Source of the DNA: a bacterium
Lineage (GTDB): Bacteria; Electryoneota; RPQS01
NCBI GenBank assembly: GCA_018812265.1
Contig: JAHJDG010000035.1
Coordinates: 1-50,077, forward strand
Direction: 5' to 3'
DNA length: 50,077 bases
Made by a program: the position numbers and the translations under genes. The notes beneath the pieces are model-generated. The model worked only from the letters and a program-made list of their open reading frames with translations, made no database searches and had not been told where the DNA came from. Shown piece by piece: positions 4,505 through 36,006 of this stretch; within the stretch, counting starts at the first letter, position 1, and the number at the start of each line of letters is the position of its first letter.

Positions 4505-5089
4505 TTACTTCGGTGCGCCGGCGAGTTCCTTCTGAGCCGCCATCGCGGACTCAGTACCCGCATACTTCGGATTCTTCAAGAACTCTTCGTAAAGCTTCTT
4601 GCGGTCCTTCTTCGGTTTCTTCATGAGCTTGTCGAATTCCTCCTTAGCCAGCTCGTTGCGAGCCTTGACACCGGCCGGAGTGTTCGGATACTTCATGACG
4701 AGTTCGTCAATCTTCTTTTCGGCATAGAGCCCTTCCGCTACGGCACTGCGGGCCACGTTCGCCGACGGAGTATTCGGGAACTTCTGAAGGATTTCATCAT
4801 ACTTCTTCTCCGCTAAGAGCTGCTCGGCCCGCTTGTTCTTGGCGTCCTGAGCGGCCGGCGTATCCCCGAAGTTGTCTATGACTTCCTGGAATTTTCCTTC
4901 GGTGACCATTTTCGCGGCCAGTCCTTCGCGAGCCTGCTTGGCAATCGGCTGGTCGGCGTACTTGTCCAGTACCTCCTGGTACTTCCCTTCATCGAACAGC
5001 TTCTGAGCGCGCTGCTCGGGCGATGCACATCCGCCCACGATCATCACGATCACGGCGAGTGCGGCAACCACGGCGATGAGACGTTTCAT
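4505..5089 (-). CDS. Repeat lipoprotein, paralogue of 5219-5830
   Basis: 194 residues. The signal peptide ends in a lipobox VGGC near residue 21. The rest is built from repeats of about 30-33 residues with the pattern A..LF.EGKYQEVLDKY.D.P.A (about residues 30-150), which resemble half-TPR or alpha-solenoid units. The tail is Lys-rich. It should be a lipid-anchored envelope scaffold; no enzyme motif is seen. The upstream gene at 5219-5830 encodes a clear paralogue with the same repeats, 129 bases away. Members of the TPR/BamD-like class bind other envelope proteins, but I cannot assign a partner. Confidence 0.85.
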   Translation of the reverse strand: MKRLIAVVAALAVIVMIVGGCASPEQRAQKLFDEGKYQEVLDKYADQPIAKQAREGLAAKMVTEGKFQEVIDNFGDTPAAQDAKNKRAEQLLAEKKYDEILQKFPNTPSANVARSAVAEGLYAEKKIDELVMKYPNTPAGVKARNELAKEEFDKLMKKPKKDRKKLYEEFLKNPKYAGTESAMAAQKELAGAPK

Positions 5090-5218: not shown

Positions 5219-5830
5219 CTATTTCTTGCGTTTCGGGGCTTCGGCGGCGCGGATATCGGTAAGCATCTTGTTGGCCTCCCGCTGGGCCACCGTTCCCGCA
5301 TACGAACGAACGATGTGGGTCAGCGCGTCCTTCTTGGCGTCCCCCTTCAGCTTCTTGGCCTGCGTCAGTTCGGCCATTCCACGTTCTTCCTTGATCTGTT
5401 TAGCGTTCTCGTTTTCGGGGAATCTGCGCACAAGCTCATCCAACTGCCCGGCGGCAAACAGGCTATCGGCCAGCCGGTTGCCCGCCAGCGGCGCCACCGC
5501 GCTGAACGGGAAAGAATCCAGGATCGCCTGATACTCGCCCCGTGCGAACAACAGTTGAGCCATTTGTTCAGTCGCCTTATGAGCCGCCGGAGTGTCGGAG
5601 TAGTTGCGAAGAATTTCCTCGAACCTCTCCTCGCGCAGCAGCCCTTCCGCGATCTTGGCCCGAGCCCGGCGGGCGATTTCCAGATCAGGGTATTTGTCTA
5701 CAACCGCCTGATATTCTCCCTTCTCGAACAGCTTATTCGCTGCCGCCGGACGGCTCTGGCAACCGCTCGCAATGAGAATGAGGGAGATTCCGATGACCAT
5801 CAGGAGAGCACGGGTGAGTCGGTAATACAT
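5219..5830 (-). CDS. Repeat lipoprotein
   Basis: 203 residues. A hydrophobic N-terminus ends in a lipobox IASGC near residue 24. Repeats of about 32 residues follow, with the pattern ANKLFEKGEYQAVVDKYPD, then AEGLLREERFEEILRNYSD, then LLFARGEYQAILDSF, then DSLFAAGQLDELVRRFPE. The C-terminus is basic. This is the paralogue of 4505-5089, probably from tandem duplication. It is likely an alpha-helical lipid-anchored protein of the envelope; function unknown. A promoter-like TTGACT-N17-TAGCTT lies upstream. Confidence 0.84.
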   Translation of the reverse strand: MYYRLTRALLMVIGISLILIASGCQSRPAAANKLFEKGEYQAVVDKYPDLEIARRARAKIAEGLLREERFEEILRNYSDTPAAHKATEQMAQLLFARGEYQAILDSFPFSAVAPLAGNRLADSLFAAGQLDELVRRFPENENAKQIKEERGMAELTQAKKLKGDAKKDALTHIVRSYAGTVAQREANKMLTDIRAAEAPKRKK

Positions 5831-6198: not shown

Positions 6199-6813
6199 AT
6201 GAGACATCGTTCACGATTCTGGACTTCTCCGGTAACATATCTTCTGGCGGCGGCAGCCTTTGTCATGTCATTCCTGTACCATGGCCTATCCCATGCTCAA
6301 ACCGGCCGCGCGCAAGAATATATCACGATGTCGGAACGGATCGGCAGAATCATCGTCCAATACCGGGCTTTCGATGTCTGGATCTACTTCTTTCAAGGAC
6401 TGCTCTTCTTTCTCTGTCTCGGCTTCACCATCTACTATCTCCTCCTTTTTCATCGCACTTCGTTCATGTCCCGGATTCGACAGAAGCTTTCCGAGATGAC
6501 CCGCAAGCTGGACATGCAGGCGGCCATCGAGTTTGAAATCAACAGCCTCTCCAACAAATTCCTGTTTCTCGATCTCGTGATTACCGGTGCTCCGGTGGCG
6601 GGACTGGTGGGAACGGTGGTGGGCTTGGTTCGCGTGTTCAGCCAGCAGACGATTGTCGAGCACGTGTCCATGCAATCCATCGCCGGAGGAATGTACGTGG
6701 CGATGGTAACGACCGTCGTTGGCCTCTTGGTGGCTCTGGTGGGAATCATCGCCCGCCACCTGCTCGATTCGCGACTCGCGGAAATCCGCGATATGCTTTC
6801 GGGAGCGCGCTGA
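6199..6813 (+). CDS. MotA/TolQ/ExbB-family proton channel protein
   Basis: 204 residues. Hydrophobic segments lie at about 10-27, 58-84, 126-147 and 163-188. The signature GLVGTVVGLVRVF (about 135-147) followed by SIAGGMYVAMVTTVVGLLVALVG (split at about 160-182) is the MotA/TolQ/ExbB channel core, with the polar threonines in the last two helices retained. In this family the protein forms a pentameric inner-membrane channel that couples proton flow to work at the outer membrane. It opens a plus-strand operon; the ExbD-like gene starts one base after its stop. Which ExbB-type system it powers is not known from sequence. The extra N-terminal helix is somewhat unusual. Confidence 0.88.
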   Translation: MRHRSRFWTSPVTYLLAAAAFVMSFLYHGLSHAQTGRAQEYITMSERIGRIIVQYRAFDVWIYFFQGLLFFLCLGFTIYYLLLFHRTSFMSRIRQKLSEMTRKLDMQAAIEFEINSLSNKFLFLDLVITGAPVAGLVGTVVGLVRVFSQQTIVEHVSMQSIAGGMYVAMVTTVVGLLVALVGIIARHLLDSRLAEIRDMLSGAR

Positions 6814-6814
6814 C

Positions 6815-7243
6815 GTGGCCCGGCGAAATCTCTTTGCCGACGTGACCACGTCGTTCATTGATCTCGCGTTCAATCTGCTGCTGTTCTTCGTGATCTCGCT
6901 GGTGATTGTGCCCGAGAACGTCGTGCCGATTCGACTGCCCCGCAGTTCCGCGGCCGAGGAAACGACGTTGCAGGTGAGCGACGACCTGGTCTTCTACGTC
7001 CTGCGCGATGGAACCGTGCTGGTGGAAGACCAACTGCTGGCCGATTCGCTGGCCGCCGACACGATCCTCTTCGCCCGCGCCGACACCGTGATCGCCCAGT
7101 ATCATCAGGCCAAACCCGAGGGACGGCTGATTCTCAAGGCCGACAGCGGAGCGGTATGGGATCGCCCCGTGCAGGTTATGCAGGCCGCCGGAAAACATGG
7201 TATGCCGCTCAGTATCGCCCTCGAACCGCAAATCGGCCGCTAA
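6815..7243 (+). CDS. ExbD/TolR-like protein
   Basis: 142 residues from a GTG start at 6815, directly after the channel gene's TGA. An upstream ATG at 6719 is in frame but lies inside the channel gene and is unlikely. A short cytoplasmic N-terminus leads to SFIDLAFNLLLFF (residues 13-25), where Asp16 matches the proton-carrying aspartate of ExbD/TolR. One membrane helix (about 17-37) is followed by a periplasmic domain of about 100 residues that ends in SIALEPQIGR. In the family this subunit sits inside the ExbB/TolQ pentamer and contacts peptidoglycan or a TonB/TolA-type partner. The next gene starts three bases later. Confidence 0.85.
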   Translation: MARRNLFADVTTSFIDLAFNLLLFFVISLVIVPENVVPIRLPRSSAAEETTLQVSDDLVFYVLRDGTVLVEDQLLADSLAADTILFARADTVIAQYHQAKPEGRLILKADSGAVWDRPVQVMQAAGKHGMPLSIALEPQIGR

Positions 7244-7246
7244 GCG

Positions 7247-8353
7247 ATGACTGAGAAACAGGTCAAGAGCATCCTTCGCATCGTCTCCGCAGGCTTGTCC
7301 GCACTGACGATCCTGCTCCTTCCGGCGGTTCCGCTCTCGCAGCCGGTGCCGCAGCTCGTCATGCCGGCGATTCTGATTCCCATCGAAGAGATCATCCTTC
7401 GCCCGATCCCGCCCAAACCTCGCCCGCGCCCGCCGGCGCTCGGCCCGCTCACCGCCCAGATGATGCCCGCTCCTTACATCGCTCCCAGCGACGTGTCCGC
7501 GCCGCCCACGCAGATCATCCTGGCCGAGCCGGCGATGGAAGAGCCGCAGATCGGACTGCTCAGCCCGATCTTCGACCGTCCGCCCGAAGAGCCGTCTCCC
7601 GTTCGTATGAGTCCGGTGGCTTCGCCGCTGCCCGACATCATCACGCAGCGCAGCGATGACGGCCCCGCCAAACCGCCGCCGGCCGCCCTGCCCGGTCCCG
7701 AGCTTCAGCGCGGAGAACTCTATCGCGGAACGGGATCGCCCACGCTCGAAGTCCGCACCGAGCCGTCCTATACGGGGCCGGACTTGAACCTGCCGCAGAC
7801 CGAGCTTCCCGAGGCCGGACTGACGCGCGGCGCAGCCGTGCCCACCACTCCGCAGCCCGGTCCGGGCCCGGGAGATCGTTATCAATCCCGGGCGGGGACT
7901 TCGCCGGGAGCCGATCTCTCGGAAAGTCTGCAGTCGCAGGGTGACGTAGTGGGCGAGGGCGAGCTTTCGGGACTTCTGAACTGGCTTCGCCAGCAGCACA
8001 TCGAGTTCCCGCCCGTTGTTCGTTCGTATCTGGAGACGTCCTCGGGTGATCTGCTCGGTGTGACGCGCTACGCGGGTTGGGACATCTACGTGCAGTTTGC
8101 GGAAGACGAACACCAACTGAAAATTTTCCTCGCGCGCGGCGGAACCGGGATTCTTCTGGCCGATTCCGATTTCAAACGTCGCTCGCAGCTTTTCGGCTTG
8201 GGGCACGTGACGCGCGACGCCGCCGGAACAATCGTTGCCATCGAAGCCCAGCGCGAAAAACCCAGCCACGAACGCACCGACGATTTCTATCGCGTGTTCG
8301 GAAGCTGGATGGAAGCTCAGGGAATCAAAATGGGATCGCGCACGTCGAAGTAG
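7247..8353 (+). CDS. Pro-rich single-span envelope protein (TonB/TolA-like role proposed)
   Basis: 368 residues. A membrane helix lies at about 10-30. Residues about 32-245 are very rich in proline (for example IPPKPRPRPPALGP) and should be extended, able to span the periplasm. Residues about 250-368 look folded, with no family I can name; they include LLNWLRQQHIEFPPVVRSYL and FYRVFGSWMEAQGI. The N-helix, Pro-rich linker and C-terminal domain match the layout of TonB or TolA, though I see no TonB box partner motif or classical TonB C-terminal signature. Its place right after the channel and ExbD-like genes supports the role. It ends in TAG. Confidence 0.75.
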   Translation: MTEKQVKSILRIVSAGLSALTILLLPAVPLSQPVPQLVMPAILIPIEEIILRPIPPKPRPRPPALGPLTAQMMPAPYIAPSDVSAPPTQIILAEPAMEEPQIGLLSPIFDRPPEEPSPVRMSPVASPLPDIITQRSDDGPAKPPPAALPGPELQRGELYRGTGSPTLEVRTEPSYTGPDLNLPQTELPEAGLTRGAAVPTTPQPGPGPGDRYQSRAGTSPGADLSESLQSQGDVVGEGELSGLLNWLRQQHIEFPPVVRSYLETSSGDLLGVTRYAGWDIYVQFAEDEHQLKIFLARGGTGILLADSDFKRRSQLFGLGHVTRDAAGTIVAIEAQREKPSHERTDDFYRVFGSWMEAQGIKMGSRTSK

Positions 8354-8374
8354 ATTTTCACGGCATCACATTTT

Positions 8375-8406
8375 CCCCCCATTCTATGGGGGGATCAAGG
8401 GGGGTT
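8375..8406. repeat. C6-G6 hairpin repeat, copy 1
   Basis: CCCCCC, a 7-base loop, GGGGGG, then ATCAAGGGGGGTT. A second element at 34858-34898 has, on the minus strand, a C6-G6 hairpin followed by AACACAAGGGGGGT. It lies just after the Pro-rich protein gene and may act as a terminator or be a dispersed repeat. Confidence 0.5.
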
Positions 8407-8531
8407 GTAGCGCTGCACTGCGTGTGCTCTCTTACGTTAAGGCTATCTTGAAATGAGGTTTTCCAGAGAGAAGAACAGTTTGTTCAGTGCCTCCGTGGAT
8501 ATGTCATTTATTCCTTTTCCTACTATAAATA

Positions 8532-8885
8532 ATGAACGCGGATGATTTGGTAAAAGCTTTTTTCGGTGAACCGCTTGATTATTGGCGGCGAACAAATGAG
8601 GTAGCTCGTCGTGGGCGGACGGAACTTATCGCATTGAACAGGCAACAGGCCAATCCGGATCGCGATAGAAGGATTTTTGTACTTGAAGAAGGACTTCGTG
8701 TTTATGATAATTTTATTAACCAACAAGTAGCAAGAGTCGAAAATGCACTGAGTAACCCTAATGCCTTGATCGATGGCAATATTCTGCAAAATTTAATCCT
8801 CGCATTTTATGAGTGGGCTAATGCTACACTGGATGAGGATCATGAACTCAGACAACGCTTGCGCATGCTGAACGATCTTGGATGA
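8532..8885 (+). CDS. Hypothetical AT-rich orphan protein
   Basis: 117 residues, not recognised. It starts MNADDLVKAFFGEPLDYW and is mainly charged and predicted helical, with no signal peptide or membrane segment. Base composition is clearly AT-richer than the envelope operon around it, and it is separated from both neighbours by gaps of 178 and 88 bases. It looks like an insertion between the Pro-rich protein and the TPR protein genes. No clear ribosome site is seen before the ATG, so the start is uncertain. Expression as an independent small cytoplasmic protein is the simplest reading. Confidence 0.55.
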   Translation: MNADDLVKAFFGEPLDYWRRTNEVARRGRTELIALNRQQANPDRDRRIFVLEEGLRVYDNFINQQVARVENALSNPNALIDGNILQNLILAFYEWANATLDEDHELRQRLRMLNDLG

Positions 8886-8973
8886 TCGTAACACGCGATT
8901 GGCGTTCCTGCAGAAATAGTTCAGGAATAGTTAAAGGTGACACGGATTCTGAAATTCACCTCCTTGAAAAAGA

Positions 8974-10323
8974 ATGCTCAAATCACTCTTTATCATACTT
9001 CTATCCGTTCTGTTTTCTACGCCTCTTTTCTCGCAGAAAAACGCGCCGCCTCCCGCCGGACTCGATTCGCTCACCAAGAGCGAGGCCGATTCCATCGCGA
9101 AGCAGCTTTTCGGAGAAGAGAAAGCCGAGACCCGGGCCCTGCGCGAATTCGAGAAAGGCAAAGAGGACTTCCAATCCGGTGAAGCGTTCCTCGCCGAGGC
9201 CGATTCCATGCGCCGCAGCGGTGAGGATACGACTCTGAAAAAACCCGGCGGCGTCATCGGCACGCTCCGGCAGGCGTTCGGCGATACCACTATGTCGTCA
9301 CGCGAACGCGAGACCCGCAAGCGCGCCGACGCCGTGTTCCGCCGCGCGGCCCGCGAATTCGAGAATGCGATCAAGTATTCCCCCGAACTCAAGGAAGTGC
9401 CGCTCTGGCTGGTCGCCACCTACGACCGCCTGAAGGAGTGGCGAAAGTCGGTCGAGCTCTATCGCGAGATTTTAAACGAACGGCAGGGTGAAGACCGCCT
9501 GTGGTTCAACTACGGATACGCCGCCTTGCAGGCAGGTGAGCACCCCATTGCGGTCAACGCCTTCGAGCAGGCCATTCACATCAGCGTGCTCGTAAGCGGG
9601 GATTCGGCCGCCGTTCCCAACCGCTATTGCACGTTCGCCGGCGAAGCGTTTCTGCGCACCTATCAGGATCGGCTCGCGCTGGCCCGCTTCCGTCAGGCGC
9701 AGCAACATGCCGCGCCCGCCGACTCCGCCGAAATCCAGCGAACCATCGAATGGATTCTGTGGGATGAGGGCGGGATCGCCACGGCCGAATACCGGGACGC
9801 CGCCTATCGCGCCGAGGCTGAACAGCGCTGGGACGACGCCCGCAAGGCTTATCTCGGCGGTCTCCATTCCGCGCGCACGGAGAAAGCGAAAGACGAACTC
9901 AGCTACCGTCTGGCGCTGCTCGAATTCCAGCACGGCACGCGCACCGACGGTCTTTCGCGAATGAAAGAGCTCATGGCCACCAAGCCGAACGCTTCCGCCG
10001 AGTGGCGCGAGAACTATGGAAAGATGCTCTTCGCCTACGCACAGATTCTGGAAAAGGAAGGCGACAAGCGCGGCGCGCTCAGCTATTTCCTGCAGGCCAC
10101 CAAGATCGTCTGGAGCGCGCAGGGTGCGGGCTACGTCGAAATCGCCCGCATCGCCGCCAACGATCTCGACTCGGCCATCGAGCACGCCGCCAAAGCGCTC
10201 GATTATCCGCTGACGCGCGAGCAACGGCTGGCCGCCTATCAGATTCTCGAATCCGCCTATCGGTCCAAGGGAAACTGGGAAATGATGAGAGAATATCGTC
10301 AGCTTATGGAGGAGACTCCGTGA
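8974..10323 (+). CDS. Secreted or periplasmic TPR protein
   Basis: 449 residues. A signal peptide of about 20 residues (MLKSLFIILLSVLFSTPLFS) is followed by a charged segment (about 25-120) and then helical repeats of TPR type, for example at about 130-200 (ATYDRLKEWRKSVELYREIL, FNYGYAALQAGEHPIAVNAF) and again at 270-440. TPR proteins act as scaffolds; in envelope machines they often tie periplasmic and outer-membrane parts together. Its last bases overlap the start of the barrel gene by four, so the two are translationally coupled. It belongs with the channel, ExbD-like and Pro-rich genes by strand and order, apart from the orphan at 8532. Confidence 0.82.
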   Translation: MLKSLFIILLSVLFSTPLFSQKNAPPPAGLDSLTKSEADSIAKQLFGEEKAETRALREFEKGKEDFQSGEAFLAEADSMRRSGEDTTLKKPGGVIGTLRQAFGDTTMSSRERETRKRADAVFRRAAREFENAIKYSPELKEVPLWLVATYDRLKEWRKSVELYREILNERQGEDRLWFNYGYAALQAGEHPIAVNAFEQAIHISVLVSGDSAAVPNRYCTFAGEAFLRTYQDRLALARFRQAQQHAAPADSAEIQRTIEWILWDEGGIATAEYRDAAYRAEAEQRWDDARKAYLGGLHSARTEKAKDELSYRLALLEFQHGTRTDGLSRMKELMATKPNASAEWRENYGKMLFAYAQILEKEGDKRGALSYFLQATKIVWSAQGAGYVEIARIAANDLDSAIEHAAKALDYPLTREQRLAAYQILESAYRSKGNWEMMREYRQLMEETP

Positions 10324-12044
10324 CATTATTGCGTAGCGCCGTAGTTTCACTCAGTCTGGTTCTCTGCGCGGTCGTCCTGCACGGCGCGGATCTGGAATTC
10401 CGGCTCATCACCGTCAAGAACGTTACCAGTCCCGCCGAGCTGGCGATCCTCCGCGACGAACTCCTGCTCGGCTCGGAAACGATGGATCGGATTCTCATCA
10501 CCGACGCACTCAACGACGGCTTCGATGAGAATGATATGATCCAGCTCTATCCGTCGGGTCGCGTGCTTCGTCTCGCTCCCATCTCAGCCCGGTTGGACTC
10601 GCTGTTGCGCGCGTTTCGCCTTCCGCCCAATGTGGAAATCCACGAGACCAAGCAGTACTTTGGCCGCTATGATTCTCTGGCGTGGTCGCGCCGCGGCGCG
10701 CAGTCACTGGGCTATGGAATCCTGGCCGGACTGTCCGAGCGACTGGGGCGTGGCTATCGCGGCGAGCGCGTCGAAGGCTATTTCCATTTCAGTCCGTCGG
10801 GAAACTCGGTGATGGCGTGGAATTTCGATTCGACGAAAGTAGCGTTTCCACGGCCGGCGGGTCCGCGCGTGGACACCGTGATGGTGTACCTTCACGATAC
10901 CCTCTACGTTCCGGAAGTAATCACCGTGACCAGCGATCCGGTCGTAGTCCGCGACACCGTCTACATTCCCTCGGAACTTCTGCGCGATCCGCGCGGTCTC
11001 TACTACCGCGTGGCTCTGGGAACCGTGGGCGGCGGCTACACCATGAGCAGACGGGAAGCCTCGCGCGGCAATCTCACGCTCGGCGCGGGCAACGAATGGG
11101 ACTTCGGCGTTTGGGATTCGTGGATCAGCGGCCGTCAGGACATTCACTCGCGGATCGGCCTCCGTTTTCTTGCGGAGATGGCCCCCTGGAAATTCGACAC
11201 GTTGTCCCCGCGTTTCCTGTCCACCTCCTTCGAGACCATGTTCATTCCCGCCTGGGATCGCAGCTTCTTCGCCTTCGGCGGAATTCGCGCGATCTACCAT
11301 GACGATCTTTTCTGGGATCGCGCGCGGGCCGCGTGGGACGAAGACCCGTACGAAGAACCCGCCGCCCAAGACCTCGCTCAATACGAACTCACCTTCAAGC
11401 TCGGCCTCGATAAATTCGCGTCCTACGGCACGGGCAAGCGTTTCGGCGCATGGCTGAAGCTCTCGGGCTGGATTCCCGGCGGAGGAAAATCGGGCTATGA
11501 TCTGACGCTGGACTCAACTCTGGCGGCCCGCGTTTCGCCCGATAACGAACGGATGCCGTTTCGTTGGGAACACGACGGCGGCTACGAAATCGAAGGCGCT
11601 TTCAGCGCGCGGATCGCCGAGTCGGCGCAGATGGTGGTTTCGCTCGGTGAACTCATCATTCCCAATCTTCACTATGAATTCACGGACACGACGTTTACGG
11701 GCCGTCCGCCGAACGTGCCGGTTCGGAACAAGGGCCTCTTGAACGTCGGACAGTTTTACCAGTCCGCTTCGCTGCGTTTCGCTCCCTACAATCGCGCGAC
11801 GACTCGCTTGCAGTTCGATCTTTCCTTCCGCAACAATACGCTGAGCGAGACGGTCAAGCAGGGAACGAAGGAAGCGGTGATCGAAGAATTGTTCTATCCA
11901 TACATTGAGGCTCCCGAACTAAGCGGAGCCGTGCAGCTTGACGTCAGCATCGTTCGTTTCCGCGCCGGAGCCCGCTATTATTTCCCCGCCGGCGAAGACG
12001 CGCAGCTTCGGCCGGAAGCCGCGCTGCATCTGCTCTTCAAGTGA
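10320..12044 (+). CDS. Predicted outer-membrane beta-barrel protein
   Basis: 574 residues from a GTG start at 10320 that overlaps the previous stop by four bases and has GGAGGAG upstream. A signal peptide (about 1-24, ending LHGADL) is followed by a domain of about 170 residues with a repeated DTV.V pattern (VDTVMVYLHDTLYVPEV, VVVRDTVYIPSE). From about residue 220, alternating aromatic and hydrophobic strands (YYRVALGTVGGGY, IHSRIGLRFLAEM, SRIAESAQMVVSLGEL-like) suggest a barrel. It ends HLLFK. I cannot name a family. Last gene of the operon; a strong hairpin follows at 12069. It could be the outer-membrane part that the proton channel acts on. Confidence 0.72.
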   Translation: MTLLRSAVVSLSLVLCAVVLHGADLEFRLITVKNVTSPAELAILRDELLLGSETMDRILITDALNDGFDENDMIQLYPSGRVLRLAPISARLDSLLRAFRLPPNVEIHETKQYFGRYDSLAWSRRGAQSLGYGILAGLSERLGRGYRGERVEGYFHFSPSGNSVMAWNFDSTKVAFPRPAGPRVDTVMVYLHDTLYVPEVITVTSDPVVVRDTVYIPSELLRDPRGLYYRVALGTVGGGYTMSRREASRGNLTLGAGNEWDFGVWDSWISGRQDIHSRIGLRFLAEMAPWKFDTLSPRFLSTSFETMFIPAWDRSFFAFGGIRAIYHDDLFWDRARAAWDEDPYEEPAAQDLAQYELTFKLGLDKFASYGTGKRFGAWLKLSGWIPGGGKSGYDLTLDSTLAARVSPDNERMPFRWEHDGGYEIEGAFSARIAESAQMVVSLGELIIPNLHYEFTDTTFTGRPPNVPVRNKGLLNVGQFYQSASLRFAPYNRATTRLQFDLSFRNNTLSETVKQGTKEAVIEELFYPYIEAPELSGAVQLDVSIVRFRAGARYYFPAGEDAQLRPEAALHLLFK

Positions 12045-14875: not shown

Positions 14876-16834
14876 TTACTTGAGGAGAACAACCTTGCTT
14901 CTCGCCTGATGGTTTTCCGTGACCAGAACAGCGATATAGATTCCTGAAGCCAATGAGGTCGGTCGAAAGGAAACATCGTGTGTGCCGGCCTCGAAGAATC
15001 CGTCGCTGACTCGCGCGACGACTTGACCCAACAGATTATATAGCGTCAGCGACACGTTTCCCGCGCGCGGAAGCGTGAACTGGAAGCGAGTCTCCGCGTT
15101 AAAGGGATTCGGTGTGCAGCCGTTGAAGTGAAAGGCAAGGGGTGTGAGGGGAGTTTCGGCCGACACGATGGGGGAGAGAGTCACGTCCAATTGCGTGGGA
15201 AAACCGCCGGGAACGTTGATGAGACGGGTCAACGGCTCGTATCTTTCGTATTCAAAGCGGACGGAAAACAGACCGGGAGGAAGCAACCCGACCGCATACG
15301 TTCCCTCGACGGAAGTCAACGTGTCTACCGTGCGACGGCTGTTGTAGACTCTGACGGCCACGGCGGACAGCGGCTGGCCGGAGGAAGCATCGGTGACGGT
15401 TCCCCGCACCAATCCGACCTTGGACGCGAGATACATCCGGAATTCGGTGATGGAACCTTCGTCCCACTCGGCTCCGTCATAGACGAAGAGTTTGAAGGCG
15501 CGAAATCTTTGCGCTCCGCGAATGAGCAGCGTCGAATCGCCGTCAGCCGCCGCCAACAGTTCATGCGGCCGCCAGCGTCCGGAATAAGGAGGATCGCCCA
15601 CCGTCCACGGATACGCGGCGTTGTCGTCGAAACGGCAGCCGGTGATGTTCGCTCCCGTCACGTAAGGATCACGCAACGTCAGCTGCACGCGGGTCGTGTC
15701 CACCGTGACGAACCACAGTTCAAGGTCCCCAATCCGGGGATGCGCAATGGACACCATCACGTCGAGATCATGGATGATGGAGGTGTCGGACGTGAAAAGT
15801 TGCGCGCTGACCGTATCGAAATCGGTGATCGCCCGCGGCAATTCGCCGGAACGGTACTCGCGGAATGCCAACAGCATTTTCGGCAGCGTCACGTCCACGC
15901 GGGTTGTTTCACCCGCCCCCACGGCCACGGCGGACTCCAAGTGATCGAAGTGATACTTATGTTTGAAGTTCAGCCCGTGGTTTCCCGCGGGAATCAGCGG
16001 CAGAAAATAATTGCCCAGTGAATCCGTCCGTACGCTCCGATTCAGAACCGCAATGGTCACCGTCGCGCCGGCCACCGCCTGGGCCGAGTCATTCATCACG
16101 GTGCCGCTGATCCAACCGACGCTCTGCGGTGTGCCCTCGATCCGCACGTCGTCAATCTTCAGAACGAAGCGATCGGTCGAGGTGTAGTGAAACGCCACGC
16201 GGAACGATCCTCCGGCCAGCGCCGACAGATCGTGTTCGAAATACGTCCACGCCGCCGGCACGCTGGCGGCGGAATAGACAAGGGTCGTGAAGTCCTCAGG
16301 CGCGGCGCCACCGGTGGACGCGCGCACCTCAAACGATTCGAGGTAGTCGGCGTCCTGTGAGGCTGCCCAGTAGCTGAGCAGAATCGGTGCGCCCGCCGAA
16401 TTCTCCGAGAGAATCAGCCAGTCGTCGTTGGGAAGCGTGCCGTCGTTGAAATGGCACATGACGAACTTGCGACCGCTGTGGGCCGCGAAGTAGTCATGGC
16501 GAAAAACCCGCCATCGCGAGAGCGCCTGGAACCACGAGCAGTAACCGCCGTCACGGTCAACCTGCATCCAATTCGCCGGCAATGCTCCCGGCGCCACCGT
16601 TTCAAAGTCTTCCGTCAGCAGCACCTCGTCGAGCGCGTCGCGCGAATCATCCGCACCGGCAATCCGCGCAACTTCGATGTCTTGCGAGGAGAACTTGTCC
16701 AGCGATAAGAAGATATCGCGTTTGTGGGCCGACGGCGGAACGGCGAGCGCCGTAGCCGCGAAAAGAATCACGGCCACGAAAAACGAAACCGTTTCGCTTG
16801 GAGGGCGGCGGAGGGTGGAGAAATCGAATATCAT
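14876..16834 (-). CDS. Sorted surface protein with choice-of-anchor J and P-like domains
   Basis: 652 residues. Signal peptide at about 14-35. Domains in order: choice-of-anchor J at about 70-235 (DFETVAPGALPANWMQVD, DDWLILS, FHYTSTDRFVLKIDDV), a carboxypeptidase-regulatory-like Ig domain at 238-315, a proprotein-convertase P-like domain at about 325-470 (HDLDVMVSIAHPRIGDLELW), another regulatory-like domain at 475-545, and a C-terminal sorting domain from about 565 (CTPNPFNAETRFQFTLP, YNLLGQVVARVSDG, ending SKVVLLK). Such tails direct proteins across the outer membrane through type IX or a similar system. No enzyme motif is visible, so adhesion or matrix binding is likely. It is the last of three related genes. 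Confidence 0.85.
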   Translation of the reverse strand: MIFDFSTLRRPPSETVSFFVAVILFAATALAVPPSAHKRDIFLSLDKFSSQDIEVARIAGADDSRDALDEVLLTEDFETVAPGALPANWMQVDRDGGYCSWFQALSRWRVFRHDYFAAHSGRKFVMCHFNDGTLPNDDWLILSENSAGAPILLSYWAASQDADYLESFEVRASTGGAAPEDFTTLVYSAASVPAAWTYFEHDLSALAGGSFRVAFHYTSTDRFVLKIDDVRIEGTPQSVGWISGTVMNDSAQAVAGATVTIAVLNRSVRTDSLGNYFLPLIPAGNHGLNFKHKYHFDHLESAVAVGAGETTRVDVTLPKMLLAFREYRSGELPRAITDFDTVSAQLFTSDTSIIHDLDVMVSIAHPRIGDLELWFVTVDTTRVQLTLRDPYVTGANITGCRFDDNAAYPWTVGDPPYSGRWRPHELLAAADGDSTLLIRGAQRFRAFKLFVYDGAEWDEGSITEFRMYLASKVGLVRGTVTDASSGQPLSAVAVRVYNSRRTVDTLTSVEGTYAVGLLPPGLFSVRFEYERYEPLTRLINVPGGFPTQLDVTLSPIVSAETPLTPLAFHFNGCTPNPFNAETRFQFTLPRAGNVSLTLYNLLGQVVARVSDGFFEAGTHDVSFRPTSLASGIYIAVLVTENHQARSKVVLLK

Positions 16835-16916: not shown

Positions 16917-18929
16917 CTACTTCAGCAGCATCAGTTTATGCGTGGCCGTGTGCTGGCCGGCCGTGAGACGCGCGATGTAAACACCGGTGGAGAGCGTGGA
17001 AGCGTCGAACGACACCACGTGCTCGCCCGTGCTCATCACGTCGTTCACCAACCGTGCAACTTCCTGCCCGGCGACGTTGTACAGCACAAGTTCCACTTCC
17101 GATACCCGGTCGAGGGCAAAGCTGAACTGCGTTTGCGCGTTGAATGGATTCGGGTAGTTTCCGTAGAACTTGAACTCGCGCGGCAGCGTCGAGACGTCAC
17201 CGATGGCATTCGTCGGATCCATCGCCACGTTCACCGTGGTCGTATCACCGTCGGTCACCACGACGTCTTCCACGACGGCCGTGTCGAAGTTCGCCCGCGT
17301 GAACCGAAGGTCGTAGGTTCCCGTGTCCACCGCCGCAAACGTGTAGCGACCCTGGGCGTTGGTGTTGGCCGTCAGGGACGTTCCCAGAATCGCGACCTGA
17401 ACGTTCAACATCGGCTGCGACGTCTGCGAATTTGTTATCGTACCCATGACGATTCCCATCGGACCGGGTTCGGCGCCCTCCAGCACGACGTCGTCAATCT
17501 TCAGCACAAACTCGTCGGCCGAGATGTAGTGGAACGCGATGTAGATCGGGATTCCCGCATAGGCCGATAGATCGTGGGTATGCTCCGTCCACGCCGTGGG
17601 GATGTTGGTGCCCGTGTAGATGAGGTTCGTGAAATTGGCCGGCAGACTGCCGGTGGTGGATACGCGCACCTCATAGTTCTCGAGGTAAAGCGGATCCTGC
17701 GAGGCCGCCCAATACGTGAACGTGATCGGTGCGCCCAGCGTCTGCTGCGGAAGAATCAGCCAGTCGTTGTTGGCCAGCCCGCTGGTGTTGTAGTGGTTCA
17801 TCACGACGTTGGTGCCGCTGTGGGCGTTCGCCGCTCCATAGTTGTAAACGCCCCAGGTGGAATTGCGGGTGAACTGATCGCAGTATCCGTTATCCACGTC
17901 CACCTGTATCCAGCCGGGGGGCAGCGCCCAGTTAGCGTAGCCCTCAAAATCTTCGTTGATGGCTTCGCCGCCGCCGCTCGGGGTCATGGCGACGTTCACG
18001 GTCGTGGTATCATCAGCCACGACCACGTTGCCGGAGTCCACCAGCGTCACGAAGTTGTCTCGGGTAAACTGAAGGTTGTAGGTGCCGGGCGGAACGCGCG
18101 GGAAGGTATACCCGCCGCTGGCATCGGTCGTCGCCGTCAGTTGGGTTCCCAGGATGGCCACCGCCACGCCCGCAAGGGGTGCCGAGGTTTGGGCGTTCGT
18201 CACCGTTCCCATCACCACGCCCATCGGTTCCGCCTGACCGGCTTCCAGTAGCAGGTCGTCAATCTTCAGCACGAACTCGTCGGCTGAAATGTAGTGGAAC
18301 GCGATGTAGAAAGGCGCTCCGGCATAGGTGGACAGATCATGGACGTGCTGCGTCCAGGCGGAAGGAATGTTGGTTCCGGTGTAGATGACGTTCGTGAAAT
18401 TGGCCGGCAGAGTGCCGGTGGTGGAAACGCGGACCTCATACGATTCGAGATAGAGCGGGTCCTGCGAGGCCGCCCAGTAGGTCAGCGTGATGGTGCCGGT
18501 GAGGTTTTGTTGCGGCAGAATCAGCCAGTCGTTGTTTTGCAGCCCGCTGGTGTTGTAGTGGTTCATCACCACGTTGGTGCCGGTATGGGCGTTGGCCGCT
18601 CCATAGTTGTACACGCCCCAGGTGGAATTGCGGGTGAATTGATCGCAGTATCCGTTATCCACGTCCACCTGAATCCAGCCGGTGGGCAACGCCCAGTTGG
18701 CCAGGCCTTCGAAGCCCTGGGAGATGATGACTTCATCCAGCGTGTGCGGATTGCGCGAGCCCACCGGAGGCAGCGTGCAGGGCTGCTCGACCGCTCCCAG
18801 ATCGGGCGCGGCGTTCTCGTACTTGGCCACGGCTACCCGTGGTTCAGTTTCCTTGACGGCGACTTGAACGCTCGCGAAGACCAGCGAGACCATCGCCAGA
18901 AACACAACCATTCGAAATAGAAACTTCAT
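16917..18929 (-). CDS. Sorted surface protein with two anchor J domains
   Basis: 670 residues. Signal peptide (MKFLFRMVVFLAMVSLVFAS) with GAGGAGAGG before the start. Two nearly identical units follow, each a choice-of-anchor J domain and a carboxypeptidase-regulatory-like domain. The first spans about 65-315 and the second about 320-570, offset by 255 residues. Over WIQVDVDNGYCDQFTRNSTW and what follows, the two copies are almost identical in both protein and DNA, so the duplication is recent. The C-terminal sorting domain starts near 590 (YPNPFNAQTQFSFAL) and ends HKLMLLK. It should be exported to the cell surface or released; ligand unknown. It lies in a block of three same-strand paralogues. 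Confidence 0.88.
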   Translation of the reverse strand: MKFLFRMVVFLAMVSLVFASVQVAVKETEPRVAVAKYENAAPDLGAVEQPCTLPPVGSRNPHTLDEVIISQGFEGLANWALPTGWIQVDVDNGYCDQFTRNSTWGVYNYGAANAHTGTNVVMNHYNTSGLQNNDWLILPQQNLTGTITLTYWAASQDPLYLESYEVRVSTTGTLPANFTNVIYTGTNIPSAWTQHVHDLSTYAGAPFYIAFHYISADEFVLKIDDLLLEAGQAEPMGVVMGTVTNAQTSAPLAGVAVAILGTQLTATTDASGGYTFPRVPPGTYNLQFTRDNFVTLVDSGNVVVADDTTTVNVAMTPSGGGEAINEDFEGYANWALPPGWIQVDVDNGYCDQFTRNSTWGVYNYGAANAHSGTNVVMNHYNTSGLANNDWLILPQQTLGAPITFTYWAASQDPLYLENYEVRVSTTGSLPANFTNLIYTGTNIPTAWTEHTHDLSAYAGIPIYIAFHYISADEFVLKIDDVVLEGAEPGPMGIVMGTITNSQTSQPMLNVQVAILGTSLTANTNAQGRYTFAAVDTGTYDLRFTRANFDTAVVEDVVVTDGDTTTVNVAMDPTNAIGDVSTLPREFKFYGNYPNPFNAQTQFSFALDRVSEVELVLYNVAGQEVARLVNDVMSTGEHVVSFDASTLSTGVYIARLTAGQHTATHKLMLLK

Positions 18930-19050: not shown

Positions 19051-20706
19051 TTATTTGAGCAAAACGATCTTGTGTATTTGCGATGCGCCGTCCGTACTCA
19101 GGCGCGCGAAGTAAATCCCCGAGGACAGTCCCTCTGCGTCGAACAGAATTCGCTGTGAACCCGCCGAATAGAACTCATCCGTCACGACCGCCGCTTTCCT
19201 TCCCAGCACGTCGAACAGCGTCAAACTCACCCGTGCCGGCTTGGACAGGTCAAAACGGAATTCCGTAGCGGTGTTGAAAGGATTCGGATAGTTGCCGTGA
19301 AATACAAACGCCTGCGGGACGGAGCTTGCCGGTCGGGACACTCCCGAGGTGGCATAACCCAGCACCACGTCGTCAATCTTCAGCATGAATTTGTCCAGGG
19401 AAGTGTAATGAAAGGCAACGTAGAAAGCGGAATCTGCGTATGCAGACAGATCGTGCGAATACTGCGTCCACACTCCGGGCACGTTGGATATCTGCTGAAC
19501 AGTTTCGGTGAAATCCTCCGGATCCGTTCCTGAAGTGGAAACTCGCACCTCGAAGTTCTCCAAATAGTTCGAATCCTGAGATGCCGCCCAGTAGGAGAGG
19601 GTTACCGATCCTTGCACGGAGATCTCTGGAAGAATCAGCCAATCGTCGTTGGCCAGCGCGCCGTCGTTGAAATGGTTGCCCACGAATCGCGATCCACTGT
19701 GGGCATCCAGCCCCTCGGCATCGTACACCTGCCAGATGGACGGTCCCGGAAACGCCGCATGTGTCGTCGAGCCACTGTCCACGTCCACTTGACTCCAACC
19801 CTCTGGAAGTGTACCGGGTGCAACGTCCTCGAAATCCTCATTAATGGCGAAGATGATGTTTGGATGAAGCGACGCATTCAGCGTGGTGGGCCGATTCGGA
19901 ACAATGCGAACGTTTTCCACGATCAACGTGTCGAAAAAGTTCTTGCTGAACCGGACCGAGTAGCTGCCGCTGTCGAGCAGATCGAAACTATAGTAGCCCA
20001 GCGAATTCGTGAAGGTGAAGGAAGTGGTCGGCAGCGGTTCCACCTTGACTCCGGAGAGCGAATCTTGCGTTTCGCTGTTCGTCACGTATCCGCTGAGCAC
20101 AACCGGCCGATTGATCTCCACTCCCCACAGCGCCACATATCCACTGTCGAGATGGAAACGATCCCACACCCTGAGCGTCCAGTCCCCCTGTACGCTCCGG
20201 CCGTCGAAGACGCTGAGTTCTTCCACTGGACGCCAGATCCCCACCAGCGGAGCCGTTTGGTCGAGAATGCTGATCCCCGCCTCGTCGTCGAACCAGCCGT
20301 CCAGCGTGTCGGCGTGGTCTTGGGGGAGCAGGTTCAGGAGCACCGTTTCGCTGGTATCCTGCGGTCCGGTCAGGCTGATGTAGAGATCGCGAACCCATGA
20401 ATGGGAGATCACGATCCGCACGTTCAGATCGGCGATGGTGGTCGTGTCGGGGATCGTGAGCACCGAGACGGCCGTGTCGTTGGTGTTGTTGCCGGGATTG
20501 TCGGGAATGGGAATCGGCCCCTCGACGTAGTAGAGCACGTCCAGACTGCTTGCACGTTCGGATCGCACGGGTTCCACGGTATTCGTCCTCGCCGGATTCC
20601 CGCATCGCTTGCCGGGCGGCTCGCCGAACTTGCTTGCCGTGGCTGCGATGGATACCGCAACTATGACAAATATCGCAATTAGTGGGCCAGAAGTTTTTCT
20701 GTGCAT
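19051..20706 (-). CDS. Sorted surface protein with P-like and anchor J domains
   Basis: 551 residues from an ATG at 20706 that opens a good signal peptide (MHRKTSGPLIAIFVIVAVS). In-frame starts further upstream (20733, or TTG at 20772) would bury it. Domain order differs from its neighbours: a proprotein-convertase P-like domain first (about 65-210, with HSWVRDLYISLTGPQ), then a regulatory-like domain (about 210-285), then choice-of-anchor J (about 290-460), then the sorting domain (YPNPFNTATEFRFDLS, ending HKIVLLK). Shuffled domains among three adjacent genes suggest duplication and recombination. No catalytic motif is seen. Ribosome site before 20706 is weak, so the start is uncertain. Confidence 0.84.
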   Translation of the reverse strand: MHRKTSGPLIAIFVIVAVSIAATASKFGEPPGKRCGNPARTNTVEPVRSERASSLDVLYYVEGPIPIPDNPGNNTNDTAVSVLTIPDTTTIADLNVRIVISHSWVRDLYISLTGPQDTSETVLLNLLPQDHADTLDGWFDDEAGISILDQTAPLVGIWRPVEELSVFDGRSVQGDWTLRVWDRFHLDSGYVALWGVEINRPVVLSGYVTNSETQDSLSGVKVEPLPTTSFTFTNSLGYYSFDLLDSGSYSVRFSKNFFDTLIVENVRIVPNRPTTLNASLHPNIIFAINEDFEDVAPGTLPEGWSQVDVDSGSTTHAAFPGPSIWQVYDAEGLDAHSGSRFVGNHFNDGALANDDWLILPEISVQGSVTLSYWAASQDSNYLENFEVRVSTSGTDPEDFTETVQQISNVPGVWTQYSHDLSAYADSAFYVAFHYTSLDKFMLKIDDVVLGYATSGVSRPASSVPQAFVFHGNYPNPFNTATEFRFDLSKPARVSLTLFDVLGRKAAVVTDEFYSAGSQRILFDAEGLSSGIYFARLSTDGASQIHKIVLLK

Positions 20707-35142: not shown

Positions 35143-36006
35143 TTATTTCATGAGGATCATTTGGCGAGTCACTTGGAAGTCGCCAGCCTTCAGAGAGTAA
35201 AGGTAGGTTCCGGAAGGAAGGCCGGAGCCGTTGAAGGAGACCCGGTGGTTTCCGACCTCGGAGTAGCCGTCCAGCAGGGTCGCGATCTCCTGTCCCATCA
35301 AGTTGTAGACTTTCAGCGTGACCGGGCCGCTCTGCTTGAGATCGAAGGAGATTTGTGTGGTCGGGTTGAACGGATTCGGGTAGTTCTGACCAAGCTCGAA
35401 ATTGGCGCTCAGCTCAGGAGTTTGGCCGAGGGACAATTCCTGATCTTCTTCGCTCGCGACATCCTCCTTGCCCGTCCAATTGAACGTGCCCGGTTCGTCC
35501 GTGAACTCCTCGGCGGAAAGCAGCATGTTCTCCGCTTTCACGGTGTCGCCGTTGACGATCCATATCTTGTCGCAATCGGGAGTCGAAATGGTTATGGTCT
35601 GCTCGCCCTCTCCGGTCATGCTGAACTTTTCGATATCGGCCTCGAACGAGATCGCCCGCCGCTCGCCGGATTCCACGAACATCATCTGGCAGGAGGTATC
35701 GCTGCCGGCCGGGCAACACGCTTCGGCCGGAAACTTCTTGATCACCACCGTGTGACCGTCCTGAGTACGGAAGGTGATCGTGTGCACAAGAACGGTGTGC
35801 CACAGATCCTTGGCCCAGCTCGGATAAGCCAGTGTCAGTCCGCCGAACATGACCACCGCCATCATGACCATCGTGACCACCGTGCGACCGCCGCAACGGG
35901 GGGGAATGTTATCGGACTGAAGTTGTTTGCGCAATGCCTCACGGTGCGACGGAACCGAAGAGTCCGGCGTGTGCATGCGATCGAATCGTCGTTCCCAGTT
36001 TTCCAT
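35143..36006 (-). CDS. Membrane protein with sorting domain, partner of the ECF sigma factor
   Basis: 287 residues from the ATG at 36006, right after the sigma gene's stop. Residues 1-38 are polar (MENWERRFDRMHTPDSS...), followed by one membrane segment (about 43-63, TVVTMVMMAVVMFGGLTLAYP). An outer domain of about 120 residues includes ACCPAGSDTSCQMMF with four cysteines. A C-terminal sorting domain begins near 207 (YPNPFNPTTQISFDLK) and ends TRQMILMK. Gene order and topology suggest an anti-sigma factor, although no ZAS zinc motif is seen. A sorting tail on an inner-membrane anti-sigma is odd, since it would imply release or relocation. Confidence 0.72.
   Translation of the reverse strand: MENWERRFDRMHTPDSSVPSHREALRKQLQSDNIPPRCGGRTVVTMVMMAVVMFGGLTLAYPSWAKDLWHTVLVHTITFRTQDGHTVVIKKFPAEACCPAGSDTSCQMMFVESGERRAISFEADIEKFSMTGEGEQTITISTPDCDKIWIVNGDTVKAENMLLSAEEFTDEPGTFNWTGKEDVASEEDQELSLGQTPELSANFELGQNYPNPFNPTTQISFDLKQSGPVTLKVYNLMGQEIATLLDGYSEVGNHRVSFNGSGLPSGTYLYSLKAGDFQVTRQMILMK

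Follow-up and report, generated by a model that had tools for sequence, protein, structure and literature searches.

An ExbB/ExbD gene set with a TonB-like linker and a fused barrel as a candidate counterpart of GldLM outside Bacteroidota

Published accounts confine the T9SS to Bacteroidetes or to the FCB superphylum and name PorLM/GldLM as the motor (PMC4793230, PMC12421860, PMC11205867). In Bacteroidota the T9SS/gliding module of GldK, GldL, GldM and GldN, together with PorP/SprF, comprises a PMF motor, a part that spans the periplasm, periplasmic proteins and an outer-membrane barrel, all of which are shared with the gene set described here. The Ton system has ExbB, ExbD and a Pro-rich single-span transducer in common with the set, and Tol-Pal (TolQRA-TolB-Pal-CpoB) has a TolQ/TolR-like motor and a TPR protein. 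Force transducers with a vWA domain adjoin TolQ/TolR-like motors (PMC12204202) and share with the set a motor-linked transducer that is neither TonB nor TolA and that frequently has a TPR gene close by. A further comparison is the Agl-Glt gliding motor of Myxococcus (AglRQS with Glt proteins); the window set has only one ExbD.

The window, the whole stretch of 50,077 nucleotides that was analysed, is contig C35 of a genome of 3.5 Mb in 235 contigs (97.5% complete, 2.9% contamination), and six open reading frames on its forward strand span 6199-12044 (Table 1). A preliminary description of this DNA had recognised five parts here, and all of them are confirmed: the ExbB-like and ExbD-like subunits by Pfam, the Pro-rich single-span protein (hereafter the linker), the TPR protein and the predicted barrel. 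It had also placed the five genes in one operon with start-stop contacts, which holds for ExbB, ExbD and linker and again for TPR and barrel, but not between linker and TPR, which lie 620 bp apart. The GC content of this gap is well below the 0.55-0.65 of the genes, and none of the fetched loci contains a relative of the ORFan within it, which makes the gap insertion-like; in a relative of the same genus the corresponding gap is about 211 bp. On this sequence evidence the stretch is probably an insertion that splits two start-stop-linked halves and lies outside the machine. Upstream of the set, two small genes on the opposite strand are divergent, similar to each other and adjoin the set in several genera, and in G005 (L049) a pair of small lipoprotein-like genes stands directly upstream of the TPR-barrel pair; whether the two genes in the window belong to the set is uncertain.

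Table 1. Positions of the features discussed. Positions without a locus prefix are those of the window; L067 and L068 are loci of the same genome.
Feature	Position	Strand	Remarks
Two small lipoprotein-like genes	4505-5089, 5219-5830	-	tblastn neighbours; weak YfiO/BamD similarity
ExbB/TolQ/MotA-like proton-channel subunit	6199..6813	+	204 aa; Pfam MotA_ExbB 3.6e-19
ExbD/TolR-like subunit	6815..7243	+	142 aa, GTG start; Pfam ExbD 1.2e-12
Linker	7247..8353	+	N-terminal span, Pro-rich spacer, new C-domain at about 7940-8344
AT-rich gap	8354..8973	.	GC 0.435; contains 117-aa ORFan at 8532-8885
G-run motif	8385-8404		Downstream of linker stop
TPR protein	8974..10323	+	449 aa, signal peptide; weak TPR matches (Pfam)
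X::barrel	10320..12044	+	574 aa, GTG start overlaps TPR stop
X domain of X::barrel	about 10401-10976	+	
Barrel of X::barrel	about 11010-12041	+	
Four T9SS type-A sorting domains	14888-15112, 16929-17156, 19063-19290, 35155-35382 (-)		
PorP-like frame split in two	L068:2932-4764	-	Sequencing error or decay
Housekeeping cluster TPR-ExbB-ExbD-ExbD-TonB	L067:3701-8362	+	TonB anchor is that of the TonB-type linkers

This is a real, conserved gene set, and because its gene order is conserved it is more than a product of chance. The check for co-occurrence of the five genes that had been proposed at the outset found their order kept across the family and the order. In G002 and G007 a single contig carries ExbB, ExbD, linker, TPR and X::barrel in order, and consistent fragments of the set occur in G001, G004, G009, G010 and G012. 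The remaining arrangements are looser, with linker, TPR and barrel together without ExbB-ExbD in G003, the linker on one contig and the TPR-barrel pair on another in G005 and G006, and two further called genes between linker and TPR in G011. The barrel proteins of the relatives are 48 to 78% identical to the window copy. Within the phylum, a profile of the linker C-domain (A2) finds 17 of 39 genomes and one of the X domain (A1) 18 of 39, the two picking the same genomes except for G009, where X is present and no linker was found, probably owing to a contig break. G000 and G006 carry two copies each of linker C-domain and X, and trees of the two domains separate the same two clades, a window type and a sister type, with support of 100/100. 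A single-protein scan of named genomes returned six MAGs, their titles being KSB1, Calditrichaeota or simply bacterium, which points to a candidate phylum within the FCB group. A partial, non-exhaustive literature search found no paper describing the gene set.

The motor itself is likely to form a working proton channel, since the channel residues are invariant in the family alignment. All 17 aligned rows keep the membrane Asp of ExbD, and every row that reaches TM2 and TM3 of ExbB keeps the Thr of those helices. Six further loci have an ExbB ortholog at the corresponding position. The alignment, read by eye, also has GMxxA(M/L)xTT in TM3 of both cluster types, while the Tol-like and Ton-like ExbBs of the same genome have G-I-(A/S)-E-A-L at that place. 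Among NCBIfam models the closest to the window ExbB is TolQ (2.1e-13, with 50 bits where 221 are needed) and the closest to ExbD is TolR (2.9e-5). A defence system was considered and rejected, ExbB matching ZorA only weakly, as is to be expected from a shared channel family.

The linker is Pro-rich and, as judged by eye, has a single hydrophobic span at its N-terminus. In the window copy (P0003) no Pfam or NCBIfam family was matched, the TonB C-terminal domain included, and no vWA domain was found in a Pfam search at E up to 1, which sets it apart from the vWA transducers. The initial reading that the linker lacks a TonB signature thus stands for the C-domain and for the anchor of the window copy; it does not extend to the relatives, several of which bear a TonB-type N-terminal anchor. 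Linkers stand without an adjoining ExbB-ExbD in G003, G005 and G006 (window type) and in G008 (sister type), and the TonB-type anchor occurs in all four of these loci and in none of the 13 with a dedicated ExbB-ExbD (Fisher p 0.0004, relatedness ignored). The anchor stretch, YGSIxLKxxxGxNLxxG, is present in all four and also begins the genome's housekeeping TonB, a protein that matches tonB_Cterm at 4.4e-12. Anchored linkers match the TonB of their own genome in blastp at 4e-13 to 2e-4, and an S-x3-H motif is found in three of the four. Because its relatives bear this anchor, the linker is a TonB-like transducer whose C-domain is new. The simplest reading of these sequences is that it is a TonB-type transducer whose C-domain has been exchanged and which could draw on the general motor, and that the anchor is altered in linkers with a dedicated motor.

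The C-domain of the linker matched no known family, and a sequence search of solved structures with it gave nothing usable. The TPR protein has homologs in both cluster types and is lipoprotein-like in several relatives. Its neighbour, X::barrel, consists of two domains, a periplasmic X at about residues 28-219 and a barrel, with X elsewhere, in the sister clusters, being a stand-alone protein. No Pfam or NCBIfam family was matched by X::barrel, and sequence searches of solved structures with X and with the barrel again gave nothing usable. AlphaFold2 predicts 16 strands over residues 231-573 for the barrel, its C-terminal half mostly at pLDDT 70-87, and Foldseek matched this model to generic outer-membrane barrels at low TM-scores. 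The barrel had been taken as not TonB-dependent, and so it appears, with no receptor family matched in Pfam and no TonB-dependent receptor among the top 50 Foldseek folds. With a pLDDT of about 20-35 for X and a mean pLDDT of 54 for the linker C-domain, the models of these two domains are too poor for use. Two identities were tried and rejected, that of X with GldN (hhalign probability 0.1 against a GldN alignment) and that of the barrel with PorP (0.1). Judged by these profile searches, which had been called for with the linker C-domain and the barrel in mind, the linker C-domain and X are new domains with no match to a known family.

What places the set within a wider context is a paralogous cluster, the sister form. 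As a composite of L139, L060, L061 and L064 with the own-genome contigs L068 and L070, it comprises a surface protein with a type-B CTD, a PorP/SprF-like barrel, ExbB, ExbD, a second ExbD, linker, TPR, a stand-alone X and between one and three proteins of the FGE fold; not all of these genes are present in every locus, and several contigs break off early. As the halves from the window's own genome lie on separate contigs (L068, L070), their joining is inferred. In L068 the second ExbD was not called. The type-B CTD (CHU_C, PF13585) exceeds the Pfam cut-off in L139, L068, L060 and L053, and PorP_SprF (PF11751) does so in L064 and L139, while NCBIfam matches in sister clusters to GldK, PorP and the type-B CTD stay below the model cut-offs. 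The three FGE-fold proteins of L064 have GldK as their closest NCBIfam model, with scores (75, 54 and 30 of 350 bits) far short of its cut-off. G088, a genome from another phylum, has a related cluster that contains ExbB, a pair of ExbDs, TPR and X; the first protein of this cluster (L135) is a surface protein that ends in a stretch similar to a type-B sorting domain, though under the cut-off. Inside the window operon there is no PorP, GldK-like or CTD gene, the GldK/PorK-type FGE gene being absent. The window operon is the barrel-fused form of a set whose sister form is built round PorP/SprF, a type-B-CTD protein and GldK-like FGE proteins.

The genomes of the phylum also encode T9SS components. 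The SprA/Sov translocon is over the cut-off in 35 of 39 genomes, reaching 1.6e-188 in the genome of the window, which in addition holds at least 150 type-A CTDs; in G006 and G024 X is present and SprA is not over the cut-off. In both genera of the sister family, f2 (G011 and G012, two genomes), and in that family only, SprA adjoins the set, lying divergent from ExbB-ExbD-linker at about 440-450 bp from ExbB, with its identity given by a match of 1.4e-247. With profiles that could miss very divergent forms, searches of 61 genomes for GldM and of 27, the window's own included, for GldL gave no match, and among 147 genomes GldN turned up only in the Bacteroidota genome G099. That genome, the control, has all three (GldL 2.6e-57, GldM 3.4e-108 and GldN). 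With SprA in most genomes of the phylum, CTDs in the window's own genome and no GldL, GldM or GldN detected, the question arises of what powers the T9SS there. That the set is the universal T9SS motor of the phylum was rejected, since both X and the linker C-domain are missing from 19 SprA-positive genomes (among G013-G038), as is GldM; these same genomes argue for a dedicated machine of some lineages rather than a general T9SS motor.

The reading preferred here, with a probability of roughly 0.55, is that the set is an ExbB/ExbD-driven counterpart of GldLM that serves T9SS-linked surface proteins. That it acts as a PMF transducer, taken as a claim of its own, is highly probable, while the T9SS link of the window set, which runs via the sister cluster, is probable. 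The likeness to GldKLMN and PorP/SprF lies in the PorP/SprF, GldK-like FGE and type-B-CTD proteins of the sister cluster and in the SprA and CTD cargo of the genome. It differs from the GldLM module in that ExbB/ExbD and a TonB-like linker replace GldL and GldM, X is not GldN, and the window version is without PorP or FGE protein. In such a machine, proton flow through the ExbB-ExbD channel complex would move the linker, the C-domain of which would engage the TPR protein and the X domain beneath the outer membrane, so that force could arrive, in the window type, at the fused barrel and, in the sister type, at the PorP carrier and the FGE proteins. The task would be the one that GldLM performs in Bacteroidota, to energise T9SS-linked surface proteins, either in late export or in being seated and moved at the cell surface. 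Our inferences from the gene set concern the assembly of the parts, the passage of force, the cargo and the function. A proton-driven trans-envelope device, as the preliminary description had proposed, fits all the evidence, with synteny kept; what that description had missed is the link to T9SS and gliding.

Could the set instead serve import in the manner of the Ton system, with ExbB-ExbD-linker opening a non-canonical barrel (P0006) for uptake and TPR and X replacing plug and TonB box? In favour are a linker that is TonB-like, in some genera without an ExbB-ExbD of its own, and the fusion of barrel and periplasmic domain in one protein. Yet the barrel has no similarity to a plug or TonB-dependent receptor, none of the five genes is substrate-specific, and the PorP, GldK-like and CTD proteins of the sister cluster form an export and attachment set, all of which makes import unlikely. 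The set also differs from the Ton system in its C-domain, which is not TonB_C, and in its dedicated TPR and X partners. An envelope stabiliser akin to Tol-Pal, in which the motor pulls an outer-membrane anchor with no link to secretion, might be suggested by the kinship of the two motor subunits with TolQ and TolR and by a TPR protein comparable to CpoB. It is improbable, however: in the set and in the adjoining small genes Pfam and NCBIfam gave no match to TolA, TolB or Pal, a far better TolQ candidate exists elsewhere in the genome (L066, 1.6e-50), and the patchy distribution is unlike that of an envelope-integrity system. The set also differs from Tol-Pal in having its own barrel. Membership in the Tol-Pal, TonB or GldLM families, any of which would have spoken against a machine of a new kind, was examined and not found.

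A different objection concedes the ancestry and disputes the present role, holding that the window-type set has left its T9SS origins for an unrelated job and that its likeness to the sister cluster is merely historical. The window type is indeed a separate clade in which the PorP and FGE genes were lost or never present, and the two types coexist in G000 and G006. This reading is nonetheless rather unlikely given that SprA is the divergent neighbour of the set in G011 and G012, and that TPR, X and the linker C-domain have all been kept.

The set may represent a second, separately built power source for T9SS cargo, in which ExbB/ExbD and a TonB-derived transducer replace GldLM outside Bacteroidota in two forms, one associated with PorP/GldK and the other barrel-fused, and in which the two new domains provide the periplasmic coupling; this broader proposal is tentative, at somewhat less than an even chance. 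The linker would provide a case of a TonB-type transducer re-targeted through the swap of its C-domain, with a dedicated motor in some lineages and none in others. For the T9SS of organisms in which GldL, GldM and GldN were not detected, the gene set is a concrete and testable candidate for part of the answer to what powers it.
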